Shown piece after piece: positions 2,300 through 49,703 of a stretch of 58,978 bases of DNA. The stretch is from Rhodospirillaceae bacterium (GTDB taxonomy: Bacteria > Pseudomonadota > Alphaproteobacteria > GCA-2731375): contig JABJKS010000024.1 in NCBI GenBank assembly GCA_018660265.1, positions 1-58,978 on the forward strand, written 5' to 3'. The first letter of the stretch is position 1. Every line of letters begins with the position of its first letter. Both the position numbers and the translations under genes were made by a program. The notes below the pieces were generated by a model that saw only the letters and a program-made list of their open reading frames with translations, was not told the origin of the DNA and did not search any database.

Positions 2300-2326
2300 G
2301 GGATATTTATGACGAGTTTTATACCC

Positions 2327-3496
2327 TTATGACAAGTCCATATGCTTGCCGTCCCAGATTTTTGCCAACAGCAACGCCGCCAGGAGAGAAACGCAGGCAA
2401 TCGCTGCCATGAAAAAGTAGGCACCGTTGGCAAAATTTTCATAGAGTAATCCCGCGACCGCCATCACCAGCCCGACCGCGATACCCGCACCGACCGCACC
2501 ATGCAGGCTTTGCGCGGTGGCCGCCATACCCTCTGGCGCGGCGCGGGCAATGAAATGCATGGCCCCTAAATGGGCTGCACCGAAGGTAAAGGCATGCAAG
2601 GCTTGGGTAAGCAGGGCCACCCAAAGCGCATCTGAAAACCCCATGGCGGTCCAGCGTATGATGCCTGCGGCTGCCCCAAGGGCCAAAAGATTGGCCGCGC
2701 CAAAGCGCGAGAGTAGGCGATTGCCCAGCCAGAACAGGACTATTTCCGCCACCACCCCTTCAGCCCACAGGGCGCCGATCAGGACATCGGAAAACCCGGC
2801 GCTACGCCAATGCAGGGTGGCAAAGCCATACAGCACCGCATGGCCGGCATTGCCTAATCCACCGGCCAACAGAAACAGCAGGAATACAGGATGGCGCAGT
2901 AGTTTCCACATGTCCCCGGATTGTGCCGGCTTCGCTTTTTGATCAATGCTCTCCTCCGGCAACAACGCGCAGGCCAAAAGCACCCCGACCAATAGGGCCA
3001 GGATGGCCCATAGCACCGACCAGGACCCGAAAACGGCCAGCATGGGCCCACCGGCGAAAGAGGTCGCGATAAACGTCAAAGAGCCCCAAATCCGCAAACG
3101 TCCGTAGTCCAGGCCAAGCCGATACACGGCTCTGAGCACGACAGTCTCTCCCAGGGGAATAATAGAAGAAAACGCGACGGAGGCGATTAGGTTGACGGCC
3201 AGCAACCCCCAAAACCCTTCCATGAACAAGAAGCACGAGAAACCCAGCATGGCCATTAAGGTTAGGATCAAAAGTGGACGTCGCCGCTCCCCCCGACGGT
3301 CGGCCAATTGCGCGATCATGGGGTTAAGGATAACCCGCAGCCACAATCCGGCGGACAGCAACAGGCCGATTTCAGGTGCGGAAAGACCGCGTGCTTTCAA
3401 AAAGACCGGCCAAAACGGTGCCATGACCCCCACAACGGCAAAGACTGCGCCGAAATAAAAGGATAGTCGCCATGCCTGAAAAGCCGTTGTGCCCAT
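2327..3496 (-). CDS. MFS transporter, HcaT/MFS_1-like type
   Basis: A 389-residue, 12-segment hydrophobic protein. The N-terminal stretch (FYFGAVFAVVGVMAPFWPVF, then KARGLSAPEIGLLLS) and the RLRIWGSLTF segment resemble the 3-phenylpropionate transporter HcaT and related MFS_1-like carriers. I chose the ATG at 3494-3496 because AGGCGGA precedes it at proper spacing; an in-frame upstream start at 3556 would add 20 residues with no membrane character. It is upstream of, and probably cotranscribed with, the M81 hydrolase. Substrate unknown. Confidence 0.85.
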   Translation of the reverse strand: MGTTAFQAWRLSFYFGAVFAVVGVMAPFWPVFLKARGLSAPEIGLLLSAGLWLRVILNPMIAQLADRRGERRRPLLILTLMAMLGFSCFLFMEGFWGLLAVNLIASVAFSSIIPLGETVVLRAVYRLGLDYGRLRIWGSLTFIATSFAGGPMLAVFGSWSVLWAILALLVGVLLACALLPEESIDQKAKPAQSGDMWKLLRHPVFLLFLLAGGLGNAGHAVLYGFATLHWRSAGFSDVLIGALWAEGVVAEIVLFWLGNRLLSRFGAANLLALGAAAGIIRWTAMGFSDALWVALLTQALHAFTFGAAHLGAMHFIARAAPEGMAATAQSLHGAVGAGIAVGLVMAVAGLLYENFANGAYFFMAAIACVSLLAALLLAKIWDGKHMDLS

Positions 3497-3590
3497 ATGT
3501 TCCGCCTGATCTATTCCGCCGGTCAATCTTATTGCCAGCTTTGCGGCTGGATGCAACGATCAGGTAACCGAAGCGAAGGGAGTGAAGTCA

Positions 3591-4397
3591 ATGAATGCGC
3601 CTGTGAACTACGACAAATATACCTGTTTTCTGGCCAGCCGACAGGGCCGGGTTTTAACTCTGACCATGAACCGGCCAGACGAGTTGAATGCAGTCAACAA
3701 GATCATGCATGATGAATTGGGCAGTATCTTTTATGACGCCCAGCTGGATGACGAAGCGGACGTCATTGTGCTGACGGGTGCCGGGCGGGCGTTCTCAGCA
3801 GGGGGTGATCTGGCCATGATGAAGCGGGTCGCCGATGGTTCTGACGAACCGATGTTGAAACTTGTGGATGCCAAGCGGATCGTCTTCTCGTTGCTGGATC
3901 TTGAAAAGCCGATCATTTCGGCTGTAAACGGCCATGCCATGGGCCTTGGTGCCACGATTGCGTTGTTGTGTGATACCATCTTTATGTCGTCGAAGGCCAA
4001 AATCGGTGATCCCCATGTCAAAGTTGGGGTGGTCGCCGGTGACGGCGGTTGTGTCATCTGGCCGCAATTAATCGGTTATGCCAAGGCCAAGGAATACTTG
4101 ATGACCGGCGATCCTATTGATGCGGCGGCGGCCGAGCGTATGGGCTTAATCAATCACGTCACGGAACCGGGGGAAACCTTAACCGCAGCGCAAGCCTTTG
4201 CCCAGCGCCTGGCAGACGGACCCACGGCGGCCATTCGCTGGACCAAAGTCTCCGCCAACATTGGTCTGAAGCAATTGGCCCATTCCATCATGGACACATC
4301 CCTGGCCTATGAATGGCTGACTTTTCAGGCCCCGGATCATAAGGAGGCCATTAACGCCTTCCTGGAAAAGCGGGAGCCGACCTTCACGGATACTTGA
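3591..4397 (+). CDS. Crotonase-fold protein lacking both hydratase glutamates
   Basis: A 268-residue enoyl-CoA hydratase/isomerase family protein with MNRPDEL near residue 26 and FSAGGDLAMM in the oxyanion loop. The two catalytic glutamates of classical hydratase sit in GGGxEL and QPE motifs; here the equivalent segments read GLGATIALLCD and IGDPHVKVG, so both are replaced (Thr and His). It is therefore unlikely to be a simple enoyl-CoA hydratase and more likely an isomerase, hydrolase or other crotonase activity. Start ATG 3591 follows GAAGGGAG; a GTG at 3582 is an alternative. A GST follows 71 bases downstream. Confidence 0.85.
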   Translation: MNAPVNYDKYTCFLASRQGRVLTLTMNRPDELNAVNKIMHDELGSIFYDAQLDDEADVIVLTGAGRAFSAGGDLAMMKRVADGSDEPMLKLVDAKRIVFSLLDLEKPIISAVNGHAMGLGATIALLCDTIFMSSKAKIGDPHVKVGVVAGDGGCVIWPQLIGYAKAKEYLMTGDPIDAAAAERMGLINHVTEPGETLTAAQAFAQRLADGPTAAIRWTKVSANIGLKQLAHSIMDTSLAYEWLTFQAPDHKEAINAFLEKREPTFTDT

Positions 4398-4468
4398 TCC
4401 TGGCGACTTGCTTTGGGCGGGCCTATCCCCTCATAGTGGCACAACAGATTCAAGTAGGGGTGAGGCGA

Positions 4469-5089
4469 ATGTTGAAAGTCTATGGTCGGAATAATTCGGT
4501 CAATGTGCAAAAGGTCATGTGGATCATCGGCGAATTGGGCCTGGATTATGAGCGGGTCGATGCGGGCGGTGCCTTTGGCCAAAACGATCAGGATTGGTTT
4601 CTGGCGCTGAACCCCATGGGTCGGGTGCCGGTGCTGGACGACGATGGCTATATCCTGTGGGAAAGTCACAGCATCATCCGCTACCTGGCCAGGCAAAATC
4701 CTGCAGCAGGCCTTTATCCCACGGACCCGCAGGCATGTGGCGACGTGGATAAATGGCTGGATTGGAAGTTGGGCTTCTCGCAACCAGCCCTGTTCGGGGC
4801 CTTTTGGGGCCTGATCCGCACCCCTGAGGCAGAACAGGATAAAGAGGCGATCGAGGCATCGGCCAAGGAAAGCGCGGCGCTGTTCGGGATTCTGGACAAG
4901 CATTTGCAAGGCCGGGACTATATGGCGGGCGATAGCTTCGGCGTAGCCGATATACCCGTTGGTGCCCAGGCCTATCGCTGGTACGGCTTGGACGTGGAGC
5001 ATCCCGATTATCCCGCCCTGCGCGCCTGGTACGAGCGTTTATGTCAGCGCCCGGCCTATCGGGAACACGTCATGCTGCCCATTACCTGA
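4469..5089 (+). CDS. Glutathione S-transferase family protein
   Basis: A 206-residue GST with an N-terminal thioredoxin-like domain (MLKVYGRNNSVNVQKVMWII) and the glutathione gamma-glutamyl-binding WESHSIIRYLAR segment near residue 63, followed by an all-helical domain containing DSFGVADI. The Ser/Asn-rich tip after the first strand suggests a Ser-type rather than Tyr-type catalytic residue. I chose the ATG at 4469, preceded by AGGGGTGAGG; a longer frame from 4394 adds residues with no GST similarity. It is the first of three GST genes in the window. Confidence 0.87.
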   Translation: MLKVYGRNNSVNVQKVMWIIGELGLDYERVDAGGAFGQNDQDWFLALNPMGRVPVLDDDGYILWESHSIIRYLARQNPAAGLYPTDPQACGDVDKWLDWKLGFSQPALFGAFWGLIRTPEAEQDKEAIEASAKESAALFGILDKHLQGRDYMAGDSFGVADIPVGAQAYRWYGLDVEHPDYPALRAWYERLCQRPAYREHVMLPIT

Positions 5090-5139: not shown

Positions 5140-6636
5140 TTATTTGCTCAGGTCTTCGACAATCTTGAATTTCTGTACCTTGCCCATGGGGTTGCGGGGT
5201 AGTTCGTTGACCACTTCGATCCGACGGGGAACCTTGAAACTCGCCAGGCGCTCCCGGCAGAAGGTTTCCAGCTCTGCCCCCTTAACGGTCATACCTTCGC
5301 GCGGCACCACCAGGGCGGTGACCAATTCACCCCAGCGTTTATCGGGCAGTCCGACCACGGCGGCTTCCAACACGGACGGATGTTCATGGACAATACGCTC
5401 CACCTCCGCCGTGTAGATATTCTCCCCGCCCGAGATGATCATATCTTTCTTGCGATCAACAATGCACAAACGGCCATCGGGCTGCCAGATACCGATGTCG
5501 CCGGACATCACATAGCCGCGATGCCAGGCCGCCGCCGTCGCTTCTTCGCGTCCCAGATAGCCATCGAAATGGGTGACGCTTTTAACCCCGACCTCACCGG
5601 CTTGCCCCACATCGCAAGGCTCCCCCGCCTCGTTGAAGACAGCGACTTCGTTGCCGAATGTGGGCCAGCCCACGGAATGGGCCAGCAAGGTATCCCGCTG
5701 TTTGACTTCGAAGGTAACCCAGCCGCCTTCAGTCCAGCCATAAGCCTCGGTGATTTTAGCGTTGGGGAACATCTGCATCGCTGTGCGGGTCATGGATAGG
5801 GGACCCGGCGCGCCGGACGAAATCATGAAGCGAAAAGCCGCCACCAACGGCTCGCCCTGTCGCCGCCACTCTTCCTCAACCATGGTCGTCATGGACGGAA
5901 CCAGGAAGGCGAAGCTGCAATGTTCCGTCAACTCCGCCAATGCCAGATCAGCTTTGAATTCCGGCATGATGCGGATGCGTGCGCCGATGGCCAGCGCCGC
6001 CATGGACAACCCTGCATAGGACAGATGAAACAGCGGCCCCGGCACCAACATGACCTGATCGGCCGTCAACCCGAACTCCCAACCCCAACGCATGAGGGCG
6101 GCCAGATAATGATCGTTGGAATACAGCGCGCCTTTCGGAAAACCCGTGGTGCCTGAGGTATAGCCGACGACACAGGGTGCTTCACCCCGCCCACCTTCAC
6201 CCAACAAGGGCCGGGGCACGGCTGCCGGCGTCTTGATGTCTTCGACCCTGATGACGTTGACGCCCAATTTATCGGCAACTTCTGCGAAAGGCCCGCCGGT
6301 CAGAATTATCTTCGCGTCCGCATCCTCAACGACGAACCGAATTTCGGGCTCCGCCAGACGGGTTGAGATCGGAACAGCCGCCACGCCGGCAATCTGACAC
6401 GCCAGGTAGGCCAGGACAGCGTCCGCCTCGTTCGGCAACAACAAAGCCACCATGGTCCCATGGCGGCCTGCTTCCGCGCCCGATAATGCCGCCGATAGCG
6501 CTTCCGCCAGGGCCGTGATGCGGCACCAAACCTGGCCATAAGTCAGGGTTGCTCCGCCGTCCAGAACCTCAATGGCAATACGGTCGGGATGCGCGAGGGC
6601 ACGAACGGCAACGTTTTCGGCAATTGTTAATCGCAT
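5140..6636 (-). CDS. Class I adenylate-forming acyl-CoA synthetase
   Basis: A 498-residue ANL-superfamily enzyme that activates a carboxylate to acyl-AMP and then acyl-CoA. The P-loop-like motif GYTSGTTGFPKGA is near residues 158-170, the A5-type motif EAYGWTEGG near 310, SGDIGIW (A7) near 392, DRKKDMIISGGENI (A8) near 405, and the terminal catalytic Lys motif NPMGKVQKFK close to the C-terminus. It is the last gene of a five-gene minus-strand set (9307 down to 5140 is tightly packed) and probably primes the pathway substrate. Chain length or aromatic preference cannot be read. Confidence 0.9.
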   Translation of the reverse strand: MRLTIAENVAVRALAHPDRIAIEVLDGGATLTYGQVWCRITALAEALSAALSGAEAGRHGTMVALLLPNEADAVLAYLACQIAGVAAVPISTRLAEPEIRFVVEDADAKIILTGGPFAEVADKLGVNVIRVEDIKTPAAVPRPLLGEGGRGEAPCVVGYTSGTTGFPKGALYSNDHYLAALMRWGWEFGLTADQVMLVPGPLFHLSYAGLSMAALAIGARIRIMPEFKADLALAELTEHCSFAFLVPSMTTMVEEEWRRQGEPLVAAFRFMISSGAPGPLSMTRTAMQMFPNAKITEAYGWTEGGWVTFEVKQRDTLLAHSVGWPTFGNEVAVFNEAGEPCDVGQAGEVGVKSVTHFDGYLGREEATAAAWHRGYVMSGDIGIWQPDGRLCIVDRKKDMIISGGENIYTAEVERIVHEHPSVLEAAVVGLPDKRWGELVTALVVPREGMTVKGAELETFCRERLASFKVPRRIEVVNELPRNPMGKVQKFKIVEDLSK

Positions 6637-6654
6637 GAGATCGGGCGCATGAGG

Positions 6655-7905
6655 CTAGTTACGGGTCAGAACGACCGAGGCGTTTTGCCCGCCAAAGCCG
6701 AAGGAATTGACCTGACAACTGGCGTATTTCATCTGCCGGGGCGCGCCGTGGACGATGTCAAAATCCGCCTCCGGGTCCGGCTCGTCGGTGTTGGCGATAT
6801 AGGTGAAACGATCCTCGGCCATGCCCAGAAGGGCGGAGATCATAGCCATGGCGCCAGAGGAGGCACCGGAATGGCCAATATGCCCCTTGATGGAGGCGAC
6901 GGGTAATCCGCGCCCGGCGTGAACCAAGTTGATAGCGCGGATCTCCGCCGTATCGCCTTTTGGCGTGCCGGTTGCATGCGCAATCAGGGCGTCCATCTCA
7001 CCGGCTGCCATGTCGGCATCCTGCAATGCCAGTTCCATGGCACGGGCTTCCCATACCCCCGTTGGTTCCGGCGATGACGGGTGAAAGCCATCAGCGCACG
7101 AGCCATAGCCGCGCAGGTAACCCAGAATATTGGCACCACGGGCACGGGCATGTTCGGCCCGCTCCAGCACCATCATGCCGGAACCTTCACCGACCACGAT
7201 ACCGCTGCGTTTCACATCGAAGGGCAGCATGGCCTGGTTCGGATCGGGCGATGGTGCCTCCATGCCATAGACGTTGCCGGTATAGAACAGCACCGGCACA
7301 AAATCACCGTCCCGGCCGCCGCCGGCAAGAGAGATCCCGCCTTCAGTGCCGCCCGCAATCGCGACGTCCGCCTCGCCCCGTTCGATAATACGCGCTGCCG
7401 TACCGATGGCATCCAGGGAGGAGGCGCAGGCCGTGGTAACCGTCAATGACGGTCCGTGCAGGCCATAGCGCATGGCGATTTGCGCTGCCGCCATGTTGGG
7501 CCAGATCTGGATCATCGTCTTCCGCGGTATGGCATCGGGCCCGTCCGTATCAAGGGCATGTTGCGCCTTCATCACCGCGCGCACGCCACCAATAGAGGTG
7601 CCGCTGACAACTGCTGTACGCAGGGGGTCCAGCTCTCCCATATCAGCCTGGCGCACTGCTTGTTCGGCTGCGGCCAGGGTGAATTGGGCAAAAAGATCGG
7701 TGCCGTCTTCAATCCGGCGGTCCATCCAATCGGCTGGGTTGAAATCTTCCACCACCGATTGCCAGGCATCCCGACCTTCAACTTCCGCTGCCCAGGGAGA
7801 GGCCTTGATAGCGGTTTCCCCTGCCAGCATACGCTTGTGGAATTGGGCGCTATCGGTGCCCAGGGACGAGACGACGCCGGTTCCGGTAATGGCAATTTCA
7901 ACCAT
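6655..7905 (-). CDS. Beta-ketoacyl synthase II (FabF-like)
   Basis: A 416-residue condensing enzyme of the FabF (KAS II) size class. The nucleophile is Cys160 in TTACASSLD, and the two catalytic histidines are in AHATGTPKGD and KGHIGHSGAS, so the Cys-His-His set is intact. The start is the ATG at 7903-7905; a longer open frame to 8097 runs into the upstream gene and lacks similarity. No acyl carrier protein, ketoreductase or malonyl transferase is nearby, and the flanking genes are a CoA ligase and an HpaB-family flavoprotein. That is unusual for fatty acid synthesis and suggests a specialised condensation. Confidence 0.88.
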   Translation of the reverse strand: MVEIAITGTGVVSSLGTDSAQFHKRMLAGETAIKASPWAAEVEGRDAWQSVVEDFNPADWMDRRIEDGTDLFAQFTLAAAEQAVRQADMGELDPLRTAVVSGTSIGGVRAVMKAQHALDTDGPDAIPRKTMIQIWPNMAAAQIAMRYGLHGPSLTVTTACASSLDAIGTAARIIERGEADVAIAGGTEGGISLAGGGRDGDFVPVLFYTGNVYGMEAPSPDPNQAMLPFDVKRSGIVVGEGSGMMVLERAEHARARGANILGYLRGYGSCADGFHPSSPEPTGVWEARAMELALQDADMAAGEMDALIAHATGTPKGDTAEIRAINLVHAGRGLPVASIKGHIGHSGASSGAMAMISALLGMAEDRFTYIANTDEPDPEADFDIVHGAPRQMKYASCQVNSFGFGGQNASVVLTRN

Positions 7906-7921
7906 TTGGCTGCTCCCTATC

Positions 7922-9307
7922 CTATTCCGCTGCTTCCACTTCGATATGGGCGGAATGCAGGGCTGCGGCTTTCGCACCTTCCAGATCATAATGCCGCCGG
8001 GTGACAATGCGCTGGGCATACAGACCACCGCCTGCCTGCAGATTGGTGACAAAGCGCCAGCCGCCATAGGCATCCGCCGTGACATCGCGAATGGCATGGA
8101 ACAGCTTCATACGGTATTCGCCCGAAGCACCATTGCCGCCCGCCATGTATTTGCGGACCAGGGCACCGACTTCGTTATTTTCCAGATCCGCAATAGAGGG
8201 GGCGGTTACGATGGAGCCGCCTGACATATCGTGAAGATGGCGAACGACCACGTTATAGTTTGCCGCGCCATGATACTTGCCGGCGTTGATATACAGCTCG
8301 TTCGGGAAAGCCGCACCATCCGGGCCGAAATCACAATTGAAGATAGCTGCCTCCAATGAGGCGCGGACCAAAGTGGCGTGGATGATCATGTCCGAGATTT
8401 TTTCCCGCACATGGCCGACCCGTTCCAGGCCATTGGCCTCTGCTATCAATTGTGCGAAGCCAACAAGTTTGTCCGCCTCGTCCGCCAGGCCCGAAAGACT
8501 GCCCAAACGCTCCCACAAACCAAGAGAGTGGGCGAAGGTGGCTGCGTACTTGATCTCTCCATCCAGGAAAATACGCTCGTTCGGCACGAACACATCGTCA
8601 AACATGACGAAACCTTCGGGGCAATGATCCGTCGCGGAAATGGGAAAATCACGCACATCTGCATGACGCGGCGCGTAGGATGTATTGACGATCTTCACAC
8701 CTGGGGCGTTGACCGCAACACAGCAGGCAATGGCATAATCTTCCTCACCGGGCTTCATGGCCTTGGTCGGTATGGTCAACAATTCATGGCCCAGGGATGC
8801 GCCGGTGATGTGTAGTTTCGCGCCGCGAATAACCACGCCGTCTTCGCGCCGTTCGACGACCCGGCAATAGGAATCCGGATCCGGCTGTTTGCCCGGCGGC
8901 AGACTACGGTCGCCCTTGGCATCCGTAATACACTGGGTAATGCGCCGGTCACTGGCCTGCATTTCTTCAACATAGGCCATGATACGTTCGTTATAGACGG
9001 GCATGTCCGGCATGCGACCGGCTGCGGTAATCAGCGTCATGATGGAGCTATAGGTGACATGGGCCAGCATATCGGCGCTGTGTAGCAGGGGGATGCGGTC
9101 TTTCAATTCCTGGGCGGATTTCGGCACGCCCATAAGTGGGCTGCGGGCATCGGCCTCCGGCGAATAGAACCGATCATAACAATCCGACACCACATTTGCC
9201 GCCACACCCATAATGGGATGGTTGGGGATGTCATCGACCCGTTCGCCCTCAAAATAGGTGGCTCTACCATCGTCCAGGGATGCCAGATATTCTTTACCTG
9301 TCAGCAT
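7922..9307 (-). CDS. HpaB / 4-hydroxybutyryl-CoA dehydratase family flavoprotein
   Basis: A 461-residue member of the superfamily that includes 4-hydroxyphenylacetate 3-monooxygenase oxygenase (HpaB) and 4-hydroxybutyryl-CoA dehydratase. The shared segments ITDAKGDRSLPP, DPDSYCRVVERREDGVVIRG and FDDVFVPNERIFLDGE are present in order. The cysteines and the histidine that bind the 4Fe-4S cluster in the dehydratase are not found at the matching places (AATFAHSLGLWERLGSLSG has no Cys), so an FAD-only reaction is more likely. The start at 9307 has GAGGAAAC before it. No HpaC-type flavin reductase gene is in the window. Confidence 0.83.
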   Translation of the reverse strand: MLTGKEYLASLDDGRATYFEGERVDDIPNHPIMGVAANVVSDCYDRFYSPEADARSPLMGVPKSAQELKDRIPLLHSADMLAHVTYSSIMTLITAAGRMPDMPVYNERIMAYVEEMQASDRRITQCITDAKGDRSLPPGKQPDPDSYCRVVERREDGVVIRGAKLHITGASLGHELLTIPTKAMKPGEEDYAIACCVAVNAPGVKIVNTSYAPRHADVRDFPISATDHCPEGFVMFDDVFVPNERIFLDGEIKYAATFAHSLGLWERLGSLSGLADEADKLVGFAQLIAEANGLERVGHVREKISDMIIHATLVRASLEAAIFNCDFGPDGAAFPNELYINAGKYHGAANYNVVVRHLHDMSGGSIVTAPSIADLENNEVGALVRKYMAGGNGASGEYRMKLFHAIRDVTADAYGGWRFVTNLQAGGGLYAQRIVTRRHYDLEGAKAAALHSAHIEVEAAE

Positions 9308-9414
9308 GATCGTTTCCTCTATATTTTCTTGTGGACCGCAGCCCACCAATCTGTTGGCCTTAGGCTAGCATTCTTTGCCCAGGTCGGGTCAATCGTTAAC
9401 AATGCCCCTTTGGG

Positions 9415-10281
9415 TCAATCCCCATACTTTTTGTCAAATTCCCAGACGTCTTCAAAGCCCATTAATTTGTTCATATCCTCGAACGGATACAGCTGGTCGG
9501 AGACGTCTGTGGAAATGCCGTCTTTCTTCAGGGCACCATAGACATTGCTTAAAACCTGGGCTGTGGCGAGAAAGCCCGTGCCGGGGAAAATAGCCATTTT
9601 AAAGCCAATATCCTCAAGCTCTGCGGCGCTCAACAGTGGTGTGCGCCCGCCTTCGACCATATTCGCGAAGCAGGGTTTATCGAAATTGGCACAAATGGTC
9701 TTCATCTCGTCCAGGGATTCGGGGCTTTCAATGAAGACGATGTCCGCCCCGGCTTTGGCAAATGCCTCACCCCGGCGCAATGCTTCATCCAGACCCAGTG
9801 TCGTCCGGCTGTCCGTCCGCGCGATGATCAGGAAATCATCAGACTCCCGCGCTTCTGCGGCGACCTCAATCTTGGTCACCATGTCCTCTATCGGGACAAC
9901 CCGGCGGCCTAATGTATGGCCGCATTTTTTGGGAAATTCCTGATCTTCGATCTGGATCGCCTGAACCCCGGCTTTTTCATAGCCCCGGATTGTGTGCTGC
10001 ACGTTCAACGGCCCGCCAAAACCCGTATCCGCATCGGCGATCAGCGGCGTCGTGGTGCGCGAGGTTACTTGGGAGGCGCGGCCAACCATGTCTGTGTAGG
10101 TGGCATAACCCGCATCCGGCTGCCCCAGGTAAGAGGCGGCGATGCCGTAACCGGTCATATAAATCGCCTTGAAACCTTTGCTGTCGGCCATGCGGGCTGA
10201 AATCAGATCGAAAATGCCGGGTGCCAGGACGAATTCCCCATCCCGGAGGCACTGCGCGATGGTCTTTTTCTGTTCACTCAT
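9415..10281 (-). CDS. Isocitrate lyase/PEP mutase family lyase
   Basis: A 288-residue TIM-barrel enzyme of the ICL/PEPM superfamily, the size of methylisocitrate lyase, dimethylmalate lyase or oxaloacetate decarboxylase. The Mg-binding segment IADADTGFGG is near residue 90 and the loop EFPKKCGHT near 125, where the KKCGH cysteine is the lyase-type catalytic residue. This favours a C-C lyase over a phosphonate mutase. The start at 10281 is chosen over an upstream frame that would overlap the hydratase gene. It lies between the enoyl-CoA hydratase and the HpaB-family gene; the substrate is unknown. Confidence 0.86.
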   Translation of the reverse strand: MSEQKKTIAQCLRDGEFVLAPGIFDLISARMADSKGFKAIYMTGYGIAASYLGQPDAGYATYTDMVGRASQVTSRTTTPLIADADTGFGGPLNVQHTIRGYEKAGVQAIQIEDQEFPKKCGHTLGRRVVPIEDMVTKIEVAAEARESDDFLIIARTDSRTTLGLDEALRRGEAFAKAGADIVFIESPESLDEMKTICANFDKPCFANMVEGGRTPLLSAAELEDIGFKMAIFPGTGFLATAQVLSNVYGALKKDGISTDVSDQLYPFEDMNKLMGFEDVWEFDKKYGD

Positions 10282-10297
10282 GTCGTAACATTCCCTT

Positions 10298-11077
10298 TTA
10301 GTCTTCCCATTGCGGGGGGCGCTTTGCCAAAAACGCGGCGATACCCTCGCGAAAATTATTAGTTCCTGCCAGCCTGGCCGCCAAATCTGCTTCCAATGCC
10401 AAGCCGCCCTCAAAATCAATGCTGCCGCCCAGGGTAATGCTTTGACGGATGGCCGCCAATGCCTCGGGTGGTTTTTCCGCCAATTTTTCCCCGTAGGCCT
10501 GTACTGTCTCCCGCAGGCTTTCGGGTGCGACGAGTGTATCTACCAGGCCTATTTCAAGGGCTTTAGTGGCAGAAATGATGGCGCCGTCATAAAGCAGCCG
10601 GATCGCCTCTGGCCGTCCGATCAGCCGGGCCAGGGCCTGAGTCGCGCCCACGGGCGGAATGAAGTTGATATTAATCTCCGGCTGGCCCAGACGGGCATCT
10701 GAGGCTGCAAAGCGCAAATCGCAATGCAAGGTCATCTCCAATCCACCACCCACCGCAGTGCCGTGAATGGCGGCGAGCAACGGCTTTTCGGAATGGCGCA
10801 GGGTTTTCACCAGAATATGTAACCGATCCACCCATTCAACCATTTCGTTGGCTGCCATCTCCTTAAAAACACCGATATCCGCACCAGTTGAGAAAAACCG
10901 GTCCAGGGCCGAGGCCATGACGATGGCGCGAACGTCCCGGTCCGCCAGATGCTGTTCCACCCCCCGCTGAACCTCCCGCATCATGTCCCAATGAAAGGCA
11001 TTGATCGGTGGGCGGGCAAATTCCAGCCATCCAACCCGATTTACGGTGGTTAGTTTGACGTGTTCATAGTCACTCAT
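10298..11077 (-). CDS. Enoyl-CoA hydratase with intact catalytic glutamates
   Basis: A 259-residue crotonase. Unlike the copy at 3591, it keeps both hydratase glutamates: GGGLEMTLHCD carries the first and LGQPEININF the second. The oxyanion loop is FSTGADIGVF near residue 63. This supports true 2-enoyl-CoA hydration. The start ATG at 11075-11077 fits the alignment; the upstream extension to 11179 covers the divergent promoter region. It is the first gene of the minus-strand cluster and is divergent from the acyl-CoA dehydrogenase pair at 11182, which would supply enoyl-CoA. Confidence 0.9.
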   Translation of the reverse strand: MSDYEHVKLTTVNRVGWLEFARPPINAFHWDMMREVQRGVEQHLADRDVRAIVMASALDRFFSTGADIGVFKEMAANEMVEWVDRLHILVKTLRHSEKPLLAAIHGTAVGGGLEMTLHCDLRFAASDARLGQPEININFIPPVGATQALARLIGRPEAIRLLYDGAIISATKALEIGLVDTLVAPESLRETVQAYGEKLAEKPPEALAAIRQSITLGGSIDFEGGLALEADLAARLAGTNNFREGIAAFLAKRPPQWED

Positions 11078-11181
11078 GTCAGAATCCCTAAGTTGATCGA
11101 GCCAAAACCTGGTAGGGGTCTTTAATGCTGTTGCCCCGGCTGCTAGTTTGTTCCCTATTGTAATCCGAATTGTGAGCAAAC

Positions 11182-12333
11182 ATGCATTCCTTCCGTTTTG
11201 AACCTGCCGATCTGCCGCCCGAAACTGCGGCGATCCGCCAGGAGGTCCGGGATTTCCTGGATAAGAACCTCTCTGATTATCCCGCCGTCATGCGGGCCCG
11301 GTCCTGGGCCGGCTATGACGCGGAATTCAGTGCCAAAGTGGGTCAGGCCGGTTTCCTGGGCATGACCTACCCAAAGGAATATGGCGGCCATGGCCGCACC
11401 GCGTTTGAGCGCTATGTGATGTTGGAGGAGATGCTGGCCGCAGGCGCGCCGGTGTCGGCCCATTGGATCGCGGATCGGCAAAGCGGGCCGCTGATATTGG
11501 AATTTGGCACCGAAGATCTGAAACAGCGTATCGTCCCCGCCATTGCCAAGGGCGAGGCGTTTTTCTGCATTGGTATGAGCGAACCGGATTCAGGCTCTGA
11601 TCTCGCCTCAATCCGCACCAAGGCGACGCGCACGGACGGCGGCTGGTTGATCAACGGTACCAAGGTTTGGACCTCCGGTGCGCATTTAGTGCACTACATG
11701 ATCGCCCTGGTTCGCACCAACCCGGAAGCTGAGAAAAAGCACGAGGGGATGTCCCAGATCCTGATCGATCTGCGCAACACCGACGGCATTACTATCCGCC
11801 CCATCAAGAACATGGCGGGGGAAGAACATTTCAACGAATGTGTGTTTCAGGACGCCTTCGTGCCCGATGCCAATATTATTGGCACCGAGGGTCAGGGCTG
11901 GGCCCAGGTGATGGCCGAGCTGGCCTTCGAACGCTCCGGGCCGGAACGTTATATGTCGTCTTATCAATTGATCCTGGAACTATTGAACGAGGTTTCAAAA
12001 AACCCAGGGCCCGCCAGTGCCATGGCAGCGGGCCGTCTGGTGGCCCATTTGTCGACATTGCGGAATATGTCCATCTCGGTGGCGGCGAAATTGCAATCGG
12101 GCCAGGACCCAGCCCTTGATGGATCCGTGGTTAAGGAACTGGGTACGCTGTTTGAACAATCTGTTCCGGTGATCGCCCATCAAACCTTTGATCGGGAACC
12201 CAGTCCCGAACATGGGGATGATTTCGCCCAAACCTTGGCCTATGTCACCCAGGCGGCACCTTCATTTTCACTGCGCGGCGGCACCCGCGAGATTTTACGG
12301 GGCATTATTGCCCGGGGATTGGGCCTGCGATGA
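11182..12333 (+). CDS. Acyl-CoA dehydrogenase, large/alpha-type subunit
   Basis: A 383-residue FAD acyl-CoA dehydrogenase. FCIGMSEPDSGSDLASIRT (around residue 130) is the FAD-binding signature and INGTKVWTSGA the middle beta-domain motif; the C-terminal GGTREILRGIIARGLGL is the usual end. It overlaps the next acyl-CoA dehydrogenase gene by an ATGA junction, implying translational coupling. Paired ACAD genes of about 380 and 360 residues commonly encode heteromeric enzymes acting on bulky, often steroid or cyclic, acyl-CoAs; that substrate class is inference here. Confidence 0.91.
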   Translation: MHSFRFEPADLPPETAAIRQEVRDFLDKNLSDYPAVMRARSWAGYDAEFSAKVGQAGFLGMTYPKEYGGHGRTAFERYVMLEEMLAAGAPVSAHWIADRQSGPLILEFGTEDLKQRIVPAIAKGEAFFCIGMSEPDSGSDLASIRTKATRTDGGWLINGTKVWTSGAHLVHYMIALVRTNPEAEKKHEGMSQILIDLRNTDGITIRPIKNMAGEEHFNECVFQDAFVPDANIIGTEGQGWAQVMAELAFERSGPERYMSSYQLILELLNEVSKNPGPASAMAAGRLVAHLSTLRNMSISVAAKLQSGQDPALDGSVVKELGTLFEQSVPVIAHQTFDREPSPEHGDDFAQTLAYVTQAAPSFSLRGGTREILRGIIARGLGLR

Positions 12334-13406
12334 GCGAAGCGATGAGTGGCGATAGCGAACTGCGGACGATCCTGGGCGATCAGGTCAACCGCCTGTTGGC
12401 CGATCGGATCAGCAAAGGCAATTTGGAGGCGGCGGAGGCCGGCGCATCGCAAAACGAATTGTGGCAGGCGATTGAGGAAAACGGCCTGCCTATGGTCCTG
12501 GTGCCGGAAGACAATGGTGGTGTCGGCGGCGGTTGGGATGAGGCCGAGGTGGTCATGCGCGCCGCCGGTAAATACCAGGCCCCGGTGCCGCTTGTGGAAA
12601 GCATATTGGCCGGCTGGTTATTGTCCCAGGCCGGGCTGGATATGCCTACGGGCATGCTCTCCATCGCGCCCGTGCGCGCGGATGAGGCGTTGAGCATTAC
12701 AAAGGACGGCCGTCTAACAGGCACGGTGACCCGTGTGCCCTGGGGCAGAAATGTCGGGCATCTGGCTGTGTTCTGCCGTTGCGAGGGCGCAGGGACGATT
12801 GCGCTGGTCGCTGGCGATGCCTGGTCCGTCACCCTGGAAGATCGTAATATCGCGGCGGAACCACGGGACACCCTGGCCTTCGATGGCCCGGCAATTGCCT
12901 TTGCGCCGCTGCCGGAAGAGATTGATCCTGATCGTCTGTTTGCCTTTGGCGCACTGGCGCGTTCCAGCCAGATTTCCGGTGCCCTGGAATCCATCCTGGA
13001 ACAGACCGTACAATATGCCAACGACCGTACCCAATTCGGCCAGCCCATTGGCAAATTCCAGGCGGTGCAGCAGGAATTGGCCCGAATGGCCGGCGAAGTT
13101 GCGGCAGCCGGCGCTGCGGTGGAAAGCGCCTCCCGTGCCGCCGACCGGCGGGGCAGTGGAGCCGGGTTCGAGATGGCGGTCGCTAAAATCCGCGCGTCCG
13201 AGGCTGCGTCTATCGTGGCCGGGATTACGCATCAGACCCACGGTGCCATTGGCTTTACCTACGAGCATTCGTTGCATTTTGCCACCCGGCGGCTGTGGTC
13301 CTGGCGGGCGGAATTCGGTTCGGAAAATTATTGGGCGGAACATCTCGGCCGATCCCTGGCCAGCCATGGCGGTCAGTCCCTTTGGCCCTATTTGGTCGAT
13401 AGATAA
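12330..13406 (+). CDS. Acyl-CoA dehydrogenase, small/beta-type subunit
   Basis: A 358-residue acyl-CoA dehydrogenase family protein, coupled to the preceding one by ATGA. The FAD-binding middle-domain motif seen in its partner is absent: the central part is short and divergent, while the C-terminal helical domain is recognisable (QYANDRTQFGQPIGKFQAVQ near 228 and THQTHGAIGFTYEHSLH near 303). The missing SEPxxGSD-like segment suggests that this chain contributes structure or part of one site in a heteromer with the partner at 11182. The next gene starts 15 bases downstream. Confidence 0.88.
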   Translation: MSEAMSGDSELRTILGDQVNRLLADRISKGNLEAAEAGASQNELWQAIEENGLPMVLVPEDNGGVGGGWDEAEVVMRAAGKYQAPVPLVESILAGWLLSQAGLDMPTGMLSIAPVRADEALSITKDGRLTGTVTRVPWGRNVGHLAVFCRCEGAGTIALVAGDAWSVTLEDRNIAAEPRDTLAFDGPAIAFAPLPEEIDPDRLFAFGALARSSQISGALESILEQTVQYANDRTQFGQPIGKFQAVQQELARMAGEVAAAGAAVESASRAADRRGSGAGFEMAVAKIRASEAASIVAGITHQTHGAIGFTYEHSLHFATRRLWSWRAEFGSENYWAEHLGRSLASHGGQSLWPYLVDR

Positions 13407-13421
13407 TGCGTAAGGAAGATT

Positions 13422-14429
13422 ATGACACATAAGATCAAGACGACCGTCGTTGGTTCCTACCCGGTGCCGGCCTGGCTTGCCGCGGCCCCCTCGGAACAGG
13501 CCCTGACCGATGCCACGCGCGTGGTGCTCCACACACAGGAACAGGCCGGGATCGATCTGGTCTGCGATGGGGAGATGTACCGCTTTGACGTCAACCATCC
13601 CGAAACCAACGGCATGATCGAATATTTCGTCCGGCCCATGGGCGGTATCCGCACAGACATCGAATTTAGTGAATTGCTGGACTATCGCAGCCAGGAAGGC
13701 ATGGGTTTTCGCCGCCGTCCGCCCGCCGTGGTGGATGGTCCCATCAATGGCGGCAGCCTGGATCTGCCCGGCGCGTGTGAGGCGGCCAAGGTGCTGACCG
13801 AAAAACCGTTGAAATTCACTCTGACCGGGCCGCATATGCTGGCCAAAACCGTCGTCGATCAACATTATGGCGATGTCGCACAAGTGGCCGATGCCATCGC
13901 CGATGCTCTGGCCGAACAAGTGCGCCATTGCAAGGCGGATGTAGTGCAGCTGGACGAGGCGAACCTGCCCGGCCATCCGGACGAATGGGAATGGGCCGCC
14001 GCCGCGATCAACAAGGTGCTGGATGCGATCCCCGGCCCCGGTGTCGGCGCGGTGCATCTTTGCTTCGGCAACTACGGCGGCCAGACCATTCAGCAGGGCA
14101 GCTGGGATAAACTGTTGGGTTACCTCAACGCCCTGCATGTGGATCACATTGTGATGGAGAATGCCCATCGTCCCGTCGAAGAACTGGCCGCCTTTAAGGG
14201 TCTGCGGCCAGAGATCGGCATGGGTATGGGCGTGGTCGATATCAAGCGCACGGATATTGAAAGTGCGGATGCCATTGCCCGGCAGATTGAGGCGGCGGAA
14301 AAATTATTGGGCGAAGGCAGGGTAAAATATATTCATCCCGATTGCGGTTTCTGGATGCTGCCGCGCAATGTAGCGGACGGTAAAATTCGGGCCCTGGTCG
14401 CGGGCCGTGATCTGTTCGAGGGCAAGTGA
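13422..14429 (+). CDS. Stand-alone MetE-like methyltransferase (catalytic domain only)
   Basis: A 335-residue protein matching the C-terminal zinc barrel of cobalamin-independent methionine synthase, without the N-terminal barrel that makes MetE about 750 residues. VVGSYPVP is at the N-terminus and CDGEMYRFD near 47. The zinc ligands are visible as His-x-Cys in AVHLCFGN (near 212) and Cys in HPDCGFWMLP near the end. A ribosome site AAGGAAG precedes ATG 13422. These short proteins transfer methyl groups between varied donors and thiols. Its place between a dehydrogenase pair and an amidohydrolase argues for a catabolic demethylation rather than methionine synthesis. Confidence 0.85.
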   Translation: MTHKIKTTVVGSYPVPAWLAAAPSEQALTDATRVVLHTQEQAGIDLVCDGEMYRFDVNHPETNGMIEYFVRPMGGIRTDIEFSELLDYRSQEGMGFRRRPPAVVDGPINGGSLDLPGACEAAKVLTEKPLKFTLTGPHMLAKTVVDQHYGDVAQVADAIADALAEQVRHCKADVVQLDEANLPGHPDEWEWAAAAINKVLDAIPGPGVGAVHLCFGNYGGQTIQQGSWDKLLGYLNALHVDHIVMENAHRPVEELAAFKGLRPEIGMGMGVVDIKRTDIESADAIARQIEAAEKLLGEGRVKYIHPDCGFWMLPRNVADGKIRALVAGRDLFEGK

Positions 14430-14434
14430 TCGCC

Positions 14435-15454
14435 ATGACAGACGTGCGCGACTGGTTAGCTTTGCGGCAGGAAGATGCGTTGGAGCCTGACCTGCCCATC
14501 TGTGATCCCCACCATCATCTGTGGGAATTCCGCGAGGCAACATTTGACCGCTATCTGTTTGAAGATCTTCTGGCCGATATAGGCGGCGGCCACAATGTGG
14601 TCAGCACGGTCTTTATGGAGTGCGAGGCGTTCTACCGCGCCAAAGGGGACCGGGACATGGCGGCAGTGGGCGAGACGGAATTCGTCAACGGCGTTGCCGC
14701 GCAATCCGCTTCGGGCCTTTATGGCAATACTCAGGTTGCCGCCGCCATCGTCGGTTATGCGGATTTGCGTTTGGGGGAAAGGGCGCGGGATATATTGCAG
14801 GCACATATTCAAGCAGGCGGCGGCCGTTTTCGTGGTGTCCGCCATGCCTCCGCCTCCGACCCGCACGACGGCGTTCTTGGTGCCGATCATACCAATCCCA
14901 ATGGTGATGTGTTTTACGATGATGGCTTTCGCCAAGGTTTTGCCCAGCTGGCACCGTTGGATATGAGCTTTGATGCCTGGCTCTACCACCATCAGATCCC
15001 GGAGCTTCAGGACCTGGCCCAGGCCTTTCCCGACACCGCAATAGTCATGGATCACGTCGGCGGCCCATTGGGTATTGGCCCTTATGTGGGTAAGCGGGAT
15101 GAAATATTTGCCACCTGGTCAAAAGATGTCACCGCACTTGCCGACTGTCCCAACGTGCATGTGAAGCTGGGCGGTCTGGCCATGAAGATGACCGGATTTG
15201 GCCACCACAAGTTGGCTGAACCGCCCGCATCGGAAGTGCTGGCCGAGGATTGGAAGCCCTACATCATGCATTGTATCGAGGCGTTTGGCCCTGATCGTTG
15301 CATGTTTGAAAGTAACTTCCCGGTTGATAAATCCACCTGTGCCTATAACACCCTGTGGAATGCCTTTAAGCGGGTGGTTGCTGATTTCCCGGCCGGGGAA
15401 AAGGCGGCGTTGTTCCACGACACCGCAGCACGTTTCTATCGGATCGAGGAATAG
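14435..15454 (+). CDS. Amidohydrolase-2 family metal hydrolase
   Basis: A 339-residue TIM-barrel amidohydrolase. The metal-binding [10 protein letters not shown] is near the N-terminus, a further His is in the DAWLYHHQI strand, and MDHVGGPLG and FESNFPVDK carry the later His and the general-acid/base region. This pattern resembles fuconolactonase and 2-pyrone-4,6-dicarboxylate lactonase, so lactone or related ring hydrolysis is plausible. A GTG at 14426 overlapping the previous stop is an alternative start; the ATG at 14435 has GAGGGCAAG upstream. It is followed 4 bases later by a GST gene. Confidence 0.87.
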
Positions 15455-15458
15455 ACCC

Positions 15459-16145
15459 ATGATCGACCTTTACACTGCCTCTACGCCGAACGGCTGGAAA
15501 GCCTCCGTCACCCTGGAAGAGCTGGAACTGCCCTACGAGGTTCATCCCATAAGGTTGAGCGAGGGCGATCAGAAGAGCGAAAGCTTTCTGGCCATGAACC
15601 CCAACGGCCGTATCCCCGTCATTGTGGACCGGGAGCTGGATGACTTCGCGGTCTTTGAAAGCGGTGCCATAATGGTCTATCTGGCGGAAAAGACCGGACG
15701 CCTCATGCCCACGGATGTCAAAGGTCGCAGTCTGGTCATGCAATGGCTGATGTTTCAGATGGGCGGCGTTGGGCCCATGATGGGCCAGGCGAACGTCTTC
15801 TTCCGTTATTTCCCTGAAAAAATCCAACCGGCGATCGATCGCTATCAGAACGAATGCCGCCGCCTGTTCGAAGTGTTGGAAGTTGGCCTGACGGACAAGG
15901 AATATCTGGCGGGCGATCTTTCCATCGCTGACATCGCCAATTGGTGCTGGGTGCGCAGCCATAAATGGTCCGGCGTCGAGATTGAGGGTCTGCCGAATTT
16001 GCAGGCCTGGCTGGACCGTATGAAAGAGCGCCCCGCCTGCCAGGTGGGCACCAAAATACCCTATGACGATTCAAAGCCGAAAACCGGCACCGGCGAAGGG
16101 GCCAAGAAATTCGCCGAAGACGCTCGGAAAATGGTTACCAGGTAG
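15459..16145 (+). CDS. Glutathione S-transferase, YfcG/Nu-type
   Basis: A 228-residue GST with the N-terminal [20 protein letters not shown], a form typical of YfcG/Ure2-like enzymes that use disulfide glutathione and have Thr/Asn in place of the catalytic Tyr. [12 protein letters not shown] and [13 protein letters not shown] (near 67) build the glutathione site; the C-terminal domain has [10 protein letters not shown]. The start ATG 15459 is 4 bases after the amidohydrolase stop. The last gene of the plus-strand cluster; its 3' end is part of a strong hairpin. A glutathione-dependent step in the pathway is inferred from position. Confidence 0.89.
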
Positions 16146-16179: not shown

Positions 16180-16620
16180 TCACAAATACAGGCGCATTTG
16201 CGGCTGTCCGTCGGAGGTTTTCTCCGGCGATACCCAATCGTTGGTCAGGGTACACGAGACCCGTTGCCGGAAGGACGAAAAGCTGTCGAAGGTGACGACA
16301 TCCACCGGTTCATCGAAATGAATGGTCACCCGATGCCGGTCGGCTGCCTGCCGTTGAGCAATCGCGATGACCTTGCCTTCGAAAGACTGGCCCAAATAGA
16401 CACCGCGTACCCGTTTGCCAATCTCCAACGGCGTTTCAACCGGCCCATTGCCAGCCGCGGCATGCAAGGTGTTCCAATCCCGATAGCCCATTTGCCCTGC
16501 GACCATCTCCAGGGATTGGCTGTGGGTGATGGGATGGCCGCTTTCATTCAACGTGGCGCGCAAACGTTTGGCCTGGGATTTCAGGCTTTCAATTGATGGG
16601 ATATTCTCAGTCGTATTCAT
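16180..16620 (-). CDS. Glyoxalase-superfamily-related small protein
   Basis: A 146-residue protein. The N-terminal half (SIESLKSQAKRLRATL, ITHSQSLEMVAGQMGYRDWN, TLHAAAG) matches the helical glyoxalase-related domain found in many proteobacterial hypothetical proteins; the second half is a small beta-rich domain with FDSFSSFRQRVSCTLT. The start at 16620 is preceded by GAGGCGAGAT. No signal peptide. The function of this family is not established. It is convergent with the GST gene. Confidence 0.7.
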   Translation of the reverse strand: MNTTENIPSIESLKSQAKRLRATLNESGHPITHSQSLEMVAGQMGYRDWNTLHAAAGNGPVETPLEIGKRVRGVYLGQSFEGKVIAIAQRQAADRHRVTIHFDEPVDVVTFDSFSSFRQRVSCTLTNDWVSPEKTSDGQPQMRLYL

Positions 16621-16812
16621 ATCTCGCCTCATGCAGGTTCGCATGTGGTACATGGATTGGTGCCCGCGTTACCATCCAACCACATGACGTTGTGCTGGCG
16701 GATAAGTTTGATAACGGCTTCACCGTGGCAATTGCCTGCGGGCGGCAGGGGCCGTAACCCAAGTCGCGCGGAACTTATTTGGGCCAAGCCGTCGTGTCAA
16801 TATTCTTCGCTG

Positions 16813-45194: not shown

Positions 45195-45214
45195 GTCTCG
45201 TTGACGAGGGCACA

Positions 45215-45267
45215 GATCAACTTTAGCGGATCAACTTTTATTGAAGCCAAGGCAGTATGATGCCTTG
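45215..45267. promoter_or_regulatory. Direct repeat and hairpin upstream of the RND operon
   Basis: GATCAACTTT occurs at 45215-45224 and again at 45229-45238, a 14-base period. Just downstream CAAGGCA (45248-45254) and TGCCTTG (45261-45267) form a perfect 7-bp hairpin with a 6-base loop. They lie 62-114 bases before the efflux adaptor start and may be operator or leader elements for the efflux operon. Confidence 0.35.
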
Positions 45268-45328
45268 AATAGGCGGCCTCGCGATGCCACCTTGCGGTCT
45301 GACATTTTTCTGAGATGATCGCGTATTC

Positions 45329-46480: not shown

Positions 46481-46520
46481 GCCCGAAGATGCCACCAGGA
46501 TCATGCTATAGGAACCGGCA

Positions 46521-49500: not shown

Positions 49501-49703
49501 TCTTCGGTATGCTGCCCCTGGTAGTCTTTCCTGGTGCCGGGTCAGAGCTGTACCGTGGTCTCGGCTCGGTCGTGTTGGGCGGGTTGTCGCTTTCCGCGGT
49601 CTTGACCCTGCTGATCATTCCGCCATTGTTAAGCTTGGTCTCGGCGGTGGTAGAGCGGGGACGCAGCGGCGATGAAACAACAAGCGTACAGGCTGCAGAA
49701 TAG
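46521..49703 (+). CDS. RND efflux pump permease, single-Asp TM4 type
   Basis: A 1060-residue inner membrane pump of the AcrB superfamily. It begins NLIRISIDRPIAVVAAVLMI, has the pore region typical of the family, and TM4 reads GMVVDAAIVVLENIYRHRQT. AcrB-type pumps carry two adjacent Asp residues here; this one has Asp410 followed by Ala411. TM10-11 are marked by GIVVNNAILIVHQ. Proton translocation still needs at least one Asp, so activity is likely. It forms an operon with the adaptor; the substrate is unknown. Confidence 0.94.
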   Translation: MNLIRISIDRPIAVVAAVLMIVLFGLLALQTIPIQLTPDVRRPVLNIQTTWYGAAPAEMEREIINRQEEALKGLPGVAEITSRAEDGRARISLEFSVGQNMDRALLLVANRLDRVTGYPDEANEPTIRTSSSDDNPIGWYIIDRLPGNKIPVHTFLDQVDDLVRDRLERVPGVSRVNVYGGGERELRVIVDPEKLARYRLTVPQMLRSLREANTSMSGGDVVEGKRRYVVRTEGAFKTPEQVAAVLLRSDGARSSGSIGRVTVGDVATIEFSHKSPTAHIRSLGNPTLAANTIRDTGANVIEVMAGIHEALRELKDVTLPAVGLTIRQVYDETIYINSAITLVQNNILVGGVLAAIVLLLFLRSARATLVVSLAIPVSVVGAFVAMAALGRSLNVISLAGIAFSVGMVVDAAIVVLENIYRHRQTGAVPKTAAFLGAQQVWGAILVSALTTVLVFLPLLVMELEVGQLFRDIAVAISVSVLLSLVVSVTVVPALSRRLLSEGMKSLHSPLKLPFIDAFATAFTRYVMGFTNRVVRSRSLAITVVAVLCGAGAIATWAFLPKLDYLPDGNRNLIFGVIQPPPGYNLETTTKIAEELEKTVRPLWASETGPVSEVGKPPKIENFFYVAARATTFIGASAVEPKRVGELIPVLRAPIFKEPGTYGFISKRSLFGRGIGGGRSINLEVSGPDLDVVLDISRQAARMIGKSLPRKEGNQLRPKPGLELGAPEIRVVPDPLLLADNGVSARELGLTVDAFNDGLRVAEITVDGRRIDLMLVGPDNQITTTQGIGNLPVVTRSGTILPVASLANIKMTAGPTEIRHVERERTVTLEVRPRADLPLEAAMDVLQATVIDQLREDGLPPGVKLRLSGTADKLTAAWDHLVVDLAVAVVIVYLVMAVLFESFLYPLIILFSVPLATAGGVLGLALLNLFSFQPLDMLTMLGFVILIGIVVNNAILIVHQTLFLVRSEGLHANDAIIEAVRNRIRPIFMSTLTSVFGMLPLVVFPGAGSELYRGLGSVVLGGLSLSAVLTLLIIPPLLSLVSAVVERGRSGDETTSVQAAE

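Follow-up and report, generated by a model that had tools for sequence, protein, structure and literature searches.

The window analysed here is the whole 58,978-nucleotide contig JABJKS010000024.1 of a Rhodospirillaceae bacterium with a genome of 5.5 Mb (assembly GCA_018660265.1), and the subject is a divergent ten-gene cluster at positions 5140–16145. The reading that we favour, tentatively and at somewhat less than an even chance, is that of a genus-level catabolic cluster for coenzyme A (CoA) thioesters, arranged round an older core that occurs in at least two phyla. This core consists of an acyl-CoA ligase, a ketosynthase (KS) working without acyl carrier protein (ACP) and an HpaB-like flavoprotein without iron-sulfur ligands.

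The ten genes named by a preliminary description of the window were all found as full open frames, five per strand, with short gaps or 4-base overlaps between the neighbouring genes of each run. The left run carries the ligase (ACS), the KS, the HpaB-like protein, an ICL/PEPM lyase and an enoyl-CoA hydratase (ECH), and the right run carries two acyl-CoA dehydrogenase subunits (ACD1 and ACD2), a MetE-like protein, an Amidohydro_2 hydrolase and a glutathione S-transferase (GST). The Pfam families were AMP-binding, ketoacyl-synt, HpaB_N/HpaB, PEP_mutase/ICL, ECH_1, Acyl-CoA_dh (two genes), Meth_synt_2, Amidohydro_2 and GST. Open frames and Pfam agreed and both runs were kept across the genus, so the ten-gene divergent cluster with its named families is real. 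Start codons of the HpaB-like, ICL, ECH and last GST genes were inferred from the translations. The features are as follows; compared loci and genomes carry L and G numbers.

5140–6636, minus strand: acyl-CoA ligase (ACS), core (Pfam; solved relatives)
6655–7905, minus strand: FabF-like ketosynthase whose clade lacks most of the ACP-docking patch, core (Pfam, alignment, tree)
7922–9307, minus strand: flavoprotein resembling HpaB/4-hydroxybutyryl-CoA dehydratase, iron-sulfur ligands absent, core (start inferred at 9307; frame open to 9349)
9415–10281, minus strand: ICL/PEP-mutase superfamily lyase, 2-alkylmalate/dimethylmalate-lyase-like (Pfam, solved relatives; start inferred)
10298–11080, minus strand: enoyl-CoA hydratase (Pfam; start inferred; absent from L122 and L125)
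11081–11181, no strand: divergent intergenic region (similar stretches near ACD1 in four relatives, compared by eye)
11182–12333, plus strand: acyl-CoA dehydrogenase subunit 1, ACD1 (Pfam; solved relatives 4x28 chain A and Tcur3483)
12330–13406, plus strand: acyl-CoA dehydrogenase subunit 2, ACD2 (solved relative Tcur3481, 6wy8; 4-base overlap with subunit 1)
13422–14429, plus strand: short MetE-like protein with an HxC...E...C zinc-site pattern (Pfam, alignment)
14426–15454, plus strand: Amidohydro_2 hydrolase, possibly a lactonase (Pfam; FuconLaconase 73.5 bits, cut-off 400; 4dlf)
15456–16145, plus strand: glutathione S-transferase, YfcG-like by a weak match (Pfam; PRK13972 164.2 bits, cut-off 332; start inferred)

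The conservation of the cluster was studied in a class sample of 385 genomes, of which four belonged to the same genus (the window genome G000, G187, G281 and G359) and 381 remained after the genus was removed. In addition, the KS alignment was used to scan a collection of 84,980 species, within stretches that carried one of two peptide patterns. Among the best 80 of 156 relatives, 29 loci (L118–L146) had a KS identity of at least 47%, with L131 and L146 containing a partial KS only. L118–L123, L125 and L131 (83–93%) were taken as the window lineage, and L119, L121 and L122 were the same genomes as G359, G281 and G187. Both runs were kept in all four genus genomes of the class sample, and therefore their arrangement is not due to chance. 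Moreover, both runs were present in six of the eight same-lineage contigs (L118–L122 and L125), while L123 and L131 ended at contig edges. With the window included, the runs stood together in seven genomes, which were all the genus genomes with enough contig. The ECH gene was missing in two of the six contigs with both runs (L122 and L125) and was not found in G187. The record titles (SI072, BS150m and casp150) suggest a marine or brackish-water habitat for the genus relatives.

Outside the genus, the whole set broke up and the core recurred. The preliminary description had proposed a single pathway of ten conserved genes, to be checked by the synteny of at least six of them across Alphaproteobacteria. 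None of the 21 non-genus KS loci carried six or more of the ten, so the claim failed for the whole set but stood for the core of ligase, KS and often HpaB. The most kinds found at one such locus were four (L139, L144 and L146), counted at family level only. Families were counted by phmmer up to 10 kb on either side of the KS, with 51 loci (L147–L197) containing KS relatives of 34–39% identity as the control. The 29 KS loci included 24 with the ligase, 17 with HpaB, 14 with ECH, nine with an acyl-CoA dehydrogenase, eight with ICL, six with MetE, six with the amidohydrolase and two with a carboxyltransferase, and all eight families were absent from the control loci (0/51). For the 21 non-genus loci, which came from 20 genomes, the counts were 17 for the ligase and nine for HpaB. 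The HpaB identity in these nine was 43–69%, and the HpaB gene of L130 was split into two frames. The core was found in Vineibacter-type Alphaproteobacteria and in Actinobacteria. More distant KS relatives of the class sample (L110–L113, 49–53%) were also read, and L110 had a weak ligase match alongside.

The KS was aligned as 30 clade sequences (the window, 27 full-length loci, the second KS of L132, and L198) together with E. coli FabF and the 51 controls. C163, H303, K335, H340 and F400, which comprise the catalytic Cys-His-His, the Lys and the gating Phe, were kept in 30/30 clade sequences and also in L110–L113. According to PMC7138838, the FabF residues touching ACP are K65, R68, K69, R127, K128 and R206. 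Position 68 was never basic in the 30 clade sequences, K69 was replaced by Gly in all of them, K128 by Ala in 28 and Gly in two, and R206 by Tyr in 29 and Phe in one; position 65 was basic in 23. Among the controls, positions 68, 69 and 128 were basic in 51/51, and 127 and 206 only in a minority. Overall, seven, 22 and one clade sequences had zero, one and two of the six docking residues basic, respectively, and all 51 controls had four to six. The window KS was basic at one of the six, and its position 206 was Tyr or Val in different alignments, as the alignment was locally loose there and near 127–128. The same losses were seen in the four further relatives L110–L113. A maximum-likelihood tree put the 30 clade sequences on one side of a split with 100/100 support and the remaining 52 on the other, and several rows drew long-branch warnings. 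The preliminary description had called a ketosynthase inside a degradative set odd, and the observation held: most of the docking patch was lost and the catalytic residues were kept.

A search of the window, L198 and the 29 loci recovered its positive control, E. coli acpP, but no ACP-like frame. Small frames between HpaB and KS in the actinobacterial loci were rejected as ACP candidates; the three that were read looked spurious, and two of these had no Pfam match when scanned. A frame in L137 resembled a TetR-type regulator by eye, with no Pfam match. The KS scored 316.2 bits against the NCBIfam fabF equivalog, below the cut-off of 493.75. A separate FabF of the genome (53% to E. coli FabF) has 6/6 docking residues and an ACP gene alongside, which rules out the cluster KS as the housekeeping enzyme; a second FabF-like protein of the genome (L221) had 4/6 docking residues. 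Further, a phmmer search for thiolase-like frames covered the 29 loci, L198 and the whole window and matched nothing but its own query, the thiolase of L110. Among the window genes scanned, the KS alone touched Thiolase_N, weakly.

The best solved relatives of the HpaB-like protein were vinylacetyl-CoA isomerase (6vjr) and 4-hydroxybutyryl-CoA dehydratase (1u8v), which came ahead of the phenol hydroxylases. The CxxxC and HxxxxxxC motifs were absent in 20/20 HpaB-like proteins (12 of alignment A1 and eight beside the KS) and present as CFQRC and HRQSYGGC in the positive controls, dehydratase-like proteins from Fusobacterium (L216) and Cetobacterium (L218). The cysteines were also missing from L217, a Rhodococcus opacus protein with a dehydratase annotation. 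The [4Fe-4S] ligands of the dehydratase are Cys99, Cys103, His292 and Cys299. Thus, the profile match places the protein in the dehydratase fold family and the absent motifs leave it without the iron-sulfur site, and a true 4-hydroxybutyryl-CoA dehydratase was ruled out. The ring hydroxylation put forward earlier became doubtful for a phenol-hydroxylase type of enzyme, given these relatives and scores far below both NCBIfam cut-offs (HpaB-1, 146.3 vs 480.2 bits; HpaB-2, 96.7 vs 885.2 bits).

HpaB relatives of 63–74% in the class sample occurred in other settings. In L029, the relative has a ligase and an alcohol dehydrogenase as neighbours, together with hopanoid-type genes (LytB, DUF3463 radical SAM, DXS and squalene/phytoene synthase), and L030–L032 share most of these neighbours by clustering; the HpaB identity in L029–L032 was 63–66%. 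In L027, the relative lies directly after a cobalamin adenosyltransferase gene and near a PF04199 cyclase, and L026 shares both neighbours by clustering. The Dehalococcoidia genome G395, from which L136 comes, had nine HpaB-family matches, some close together.

The co-occurrence of the genes was examined in the 381 non-genus class genomes with thresholds of E ≤ 1e-100 for KS, E ≤ 1e-60 for HpaB and ACD1 relatives, and E ≤ 1e-40 for MetE. KS was present in five genomes, HpaB in 14, MetE in 13 and ACD1 relatives in 72. Uncorrected for kinship and genome size, KS and HpaB were found together in three genomes vs 0.18 expected (p = 4e-4), ACD1 in 14/14 HpaB genomes vs 2.65 expected (p = 2e-11), and ACD1 in 5/5 KS genomes vs 0.94 expected (p = 2e-4). 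In the 20 non-genus KS genomes, an HpaB relative was present in 17 at E ≤ 1e-60 and in 15 at E ≤ 1e-140, a count that overlaps the linkage count. For comparison, in the phylum of the Actinophytocola genome G391, itself included, 22/198 genomes had HpaB at 1e-60 and 3/198 at 1e-140. A Fisher value computed alongside mixes phyla and deserves little weight. The association of KS with HpaB is one-way.

The remaining enzymes were compared with solved relatives and curated profiles, and the CoA-thioester families bore out the earlier description of a CoA-dependent gene set. The solved relatives of the ligase include fatty-acyl-CoA synthase, feruloyl-CoA synthetase, FadD13, and the 2-succinylbenzoate and 4-chlorobenzoate CoA ligases, and its scores were below all NCBIfam cut-offs shown. 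ACD1 was nearest to 4x28 chain A and Tcur3483, and ACD2 to Tcur3481 (6wy8), with 4x28 chain D third; as in a paired acyl-CoA dehydrogenase, the two subunits differ, are encoded side by side and have a known pair as their nearest relatives. The 4x28 structure is presumably FadE26–FadE27, a steroid-side-chain enzyme. The ICL/PEPM lyase was closest to the petal death protein, a CPEP mutase-like protein and 2,3-dimethylmalate lyase, and scored 263.6 bits against NCBIfam prpB, below the cut-off of 354.4. Relatives of the amidohydrolase on plasmids could not be clearly linked to the core. No account of this gene combination was found in the partial open-access literature, which is weak evidence of absence and agrees with the claim that the combination is undescribed.

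Gene content, linkage, conservation of the core and residue losses are what was observed, and from these families a route may be drawn by inference. The HcaT-like transporter encoded beside the cluster would import a carboxylic acid, perhaps a bulky or aryl one, and the ligase, judging from its family, would form the CoA ester. The paired dehydrogenase may then desaturate the ester, as its relatives suggest, and the hydratase would add water. The HpaB-like flavoprotein could carry out another flavin reaction with the CoA ester as substrate, the KS may stand in for a thiolase and use its Cys-His-His site on the beta-keto CoA ester, and the lyase would cleave a malate-type product. The MetE-like protein, the amidohydrolase and the GST are probably accessory additions. 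We lean weakly towards a KS that cleaves in a thiolase-like manner rather than condensing with a malonyl-type CoA. The settings of four relatives look catabolic from their gene content and resemble beta-oxidation sets with a KS where a thiolase might stand: MarR and branched-chain-type ABC transporter genes near the KS in L132 (Actinophytocola), dehydrogenases, hydratases and MarR in L144 (Actinomadura), the gene order HpaB-ACAD-ligase-KS in L146 (Acidimicrobiaceae), and TetR-KS-ligase-ABC-ECH-CaiB-ECH-carboxyltransferase-FabG on the Rhodococcus plasmid pN9T4-1. A broader account, in which the alphaproteobacterial and actinobacterial KS clade left synthesis, lost its ACP dock and became a catabolic thiolase substitute on free CoA esters, paired with a flavoprotein derived from 4-hydroxybutyryl-CoA dehydratase through loss of the iron-sulfur cluster, is rather unlikely in this full form.

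Several observations weigh against the catabolic reading. The control loci were mostly Bacillota and Chloroflexota by their titles, and base rates differ by phylum and KS clade. No HpaB or ligase match was found in the 14–20 kb read at L111–L113 or within the loci L136, L138 and L141. HpaB occurred without the clade KS (E ≤ 1e-100) in 11 of the 14 class HpaB genomes, and the background genomes G525 and G495 carried a close HpaB and no clade KS at the same threshold. The p-values are generous, and relatedness and genome size were uncorrected. Moreover, ACD1 relatives overlapped the MetE genomes as well (8/13 vs 2.46 expected, p = 7e-4, kinship uncorrected), and therefore the ACD1 co-occurrence is not specific. 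A PRK motif lying three residues further on in the clade, near 127–128, could partly replace the lost basic residues. That no thiolase was found within about 20 kb counts for little as evidence. In L110 (G359), a clade relative that has lost the same residues stands beside a ligase-like match and has a thiolase two genes downstream (7874–13843, with an AidB-type acyl-CoA dehydrogenase between the paralogous KS and the thiolase); clade KS and thiolase can thus coexist. In addition, no 3-hydroxyacyl-CoA dehydrogenase was present among the window genes scanned with Pfam.

The complete condensing triad, kept in 30/30 KS sequences, is a feature of a forward ketosynthase, and the carboxyltransferase genes near the KS in L126, L137 and L198 would fit the use of a malonyl-type extender. 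Both observations, together with the thiolase beside the clade relative in L110, speak for a biosynthetic core, in which the ligase would activate an acid, the ACP-free KS would condense it with malonyl- or methylmalonyl-CoA, and the HpaB-like protein would oxidise a small polyketide-like product, with the remaining genes supplying or recycling precursors. However, the relatives were accompanied by ABC transporter genes, MarR, ECH and CaiB, oxidation genes are numerous in the window set, and no ACP-like frame was found, although other biosynthetic genes were not searched for. On balance, biosynthesis is less likely than not. The cluster might also be two unrelated divergent transcription units of one genus, the left with the core, lyase and hydratase and the right with the dehydrogenase pair and accessory genes. 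Ligase and KS without the pair in L127–L129 would agree with this, as would the ACD1–ACD2 pair without KS or HpaB in 4/4 loci (L114–L117), drawn from the 72 non-genus genomes with an ACD1 relative. Nevertheless, the two runs stayed together in seven of seven genus genomes with enough contig, and ACD1 relatives accompanied the KS and HpaB throughout the class sample, though not specifically, so that two unrelated units are unlikely.

The preliminary description had suggested the demethylation and degradation of a methoxylated or S-methylated acid by one ten-gene pathway, in which the MetE-like protein would transfer the methyl group. The MetE-like gene does lie inside the conserved run in 6/6 genus contigs with both runs, and in an alignment to 1t7l the protein keeps the HxC, E and C pattern of the zinc ligands. 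The protein (335 aa) scored below the curated cut-offs (146.8 vs 406 bits and 60.5 vs 929.95 bits). Outside the genus, however, it did not travel with the core. MetE orthologs (70–78%) occurred in 13 of the 381 class genomes, none of which had the KS, and MetE was found in 0/5 KS genomes and 1/14 HpaB genomes. It was likewise absent at E ≤ 1e-40 from the 20 non-genus KS genomes, in a search without a positive control whose query matched 17 class-sample genomes. In the 13 MetE loci (5–20 kb read), the other nine genes were absent except for a 62% ICL relative in L065, with weak ligase, GST or ECH-family matches near MetE in L056, L062 and L066. Moreover, no corrinoid or folate demethylase family was present among the ten genes by Pfam. 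Demethylation was therefore not supported by the distribution and the unrelated contexts of MetE, and as a pathway for the cluster it is very improbable. The orthologs in L054–L066 recurred with DUF993, a xylose-isomerase-like (TIM) barrel, MocA, NMT1-type ABC genes and PhyH, the families being read from L060 and the recurrence from clustering; this is a different gene set from that of the window.

The island is probably larger than ten genes and extends into 815–5089, since the M81, HcaT-like MFS and second GST genes, mostly with the second ECH, were linked to the cluster in L118–L120, L122 and L123. These neighbours are as follows.

815–2299, minus strand: M81/MlrC-type metallopeptidase, linked neighbour (Pfam; present in L118–L120, L122 and L123)
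2327–3556, minus strand: MFS transporter, HcaT (3-phenylpropionate)-like, candidate uptake gene (NCBIfam PRK11128 248.4 bits, cut-off 259)
3582–4397, plus strand: second enoyl-CoA hydratase/isomerase family protein (Pfam)
4394–5089, plus strand: second glutathione S-transferase (Pfam)

In the contig L125, the ligase and the GST are separated at 10126–13170 by genes for a formyl-CoA transferase (frc 700.8 bits, above the cut-off of 504.2) and an acetolactate-synthase-like enzyme of the thiamine type, which form an oxalate-like module in the island. In the window, a Glyoxalase_8 superfamily protein is encoded at 16180–16653, directly after the cluster on the opposite strand. Further away, a PAS histidine kinase is followed by HlyD and AcrB-type efflux genes at 43347–49703.

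The presence of a ketosynthase is usually read as a sign of fatty-acid or polyketide synthesis, and if an ACP-free catabolic clade proves true, such loci have been misannotated. The clade would then also provide a tractable example of one thiolase-fold enzyme taking over the job of another. In these probably marine bacteria, the cluster is also a candidate pathway for an acid, and named strains among the relatives (Rhodococcus qingshengii N9T-4, Vineibacter terrae CC-CFT640 and Kordiimonadales IMCC3096) could permit testing.

Compared with known systems, the window KS is a full-length homolog of FabF/KAS II (35% to E. coli FabF) with the catalytic and gating residues kept. It differs in that its clade lacks R68, K69, K128 and R206 (30/30), has no ACP-like frame nearby and has a ligase within 10 kb in 24/29 loci. 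The HpaB-like protein matches 4-hydroxybutyryl-CoA dehydratase and vinylacetyl-CoA isomerase (1u8v and 6vjr) over nearly the whole length, but differs from the dehydratase by the missing CxxxC and HxxxxxxC (20/20). The 4x28 and Tcur3481–Tcur3483 pairs were the top solved relatives of ACD1/ACD2, whose genes are adjacent and overlapping; however, the similarity was low and no steroid setting was seen. The ICL/PEPM protein matched 2,3-dimethylmalate lyase, 2-methylisocitrate lyase and the petal death protein strongly, although it stayed below the PrpB cut-off. Unlike a beta-oxidation operon, the window contains no thiolase-like frame. The 25 kb read round the pN9T4-1 cluster of Rhodococcus qingshengii gave no match to HpaB, ICL, MetE or the dehydrogenase pair; the cluster shares the KS (46%, within the clade on a long branch), the adenylate-forming ligase and ECH, and also has TetR, carboxyltransferase, FabG and ABC genes. 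The cluster of the window is best placed among those for CoA-thioester degradation, with an unusual core.

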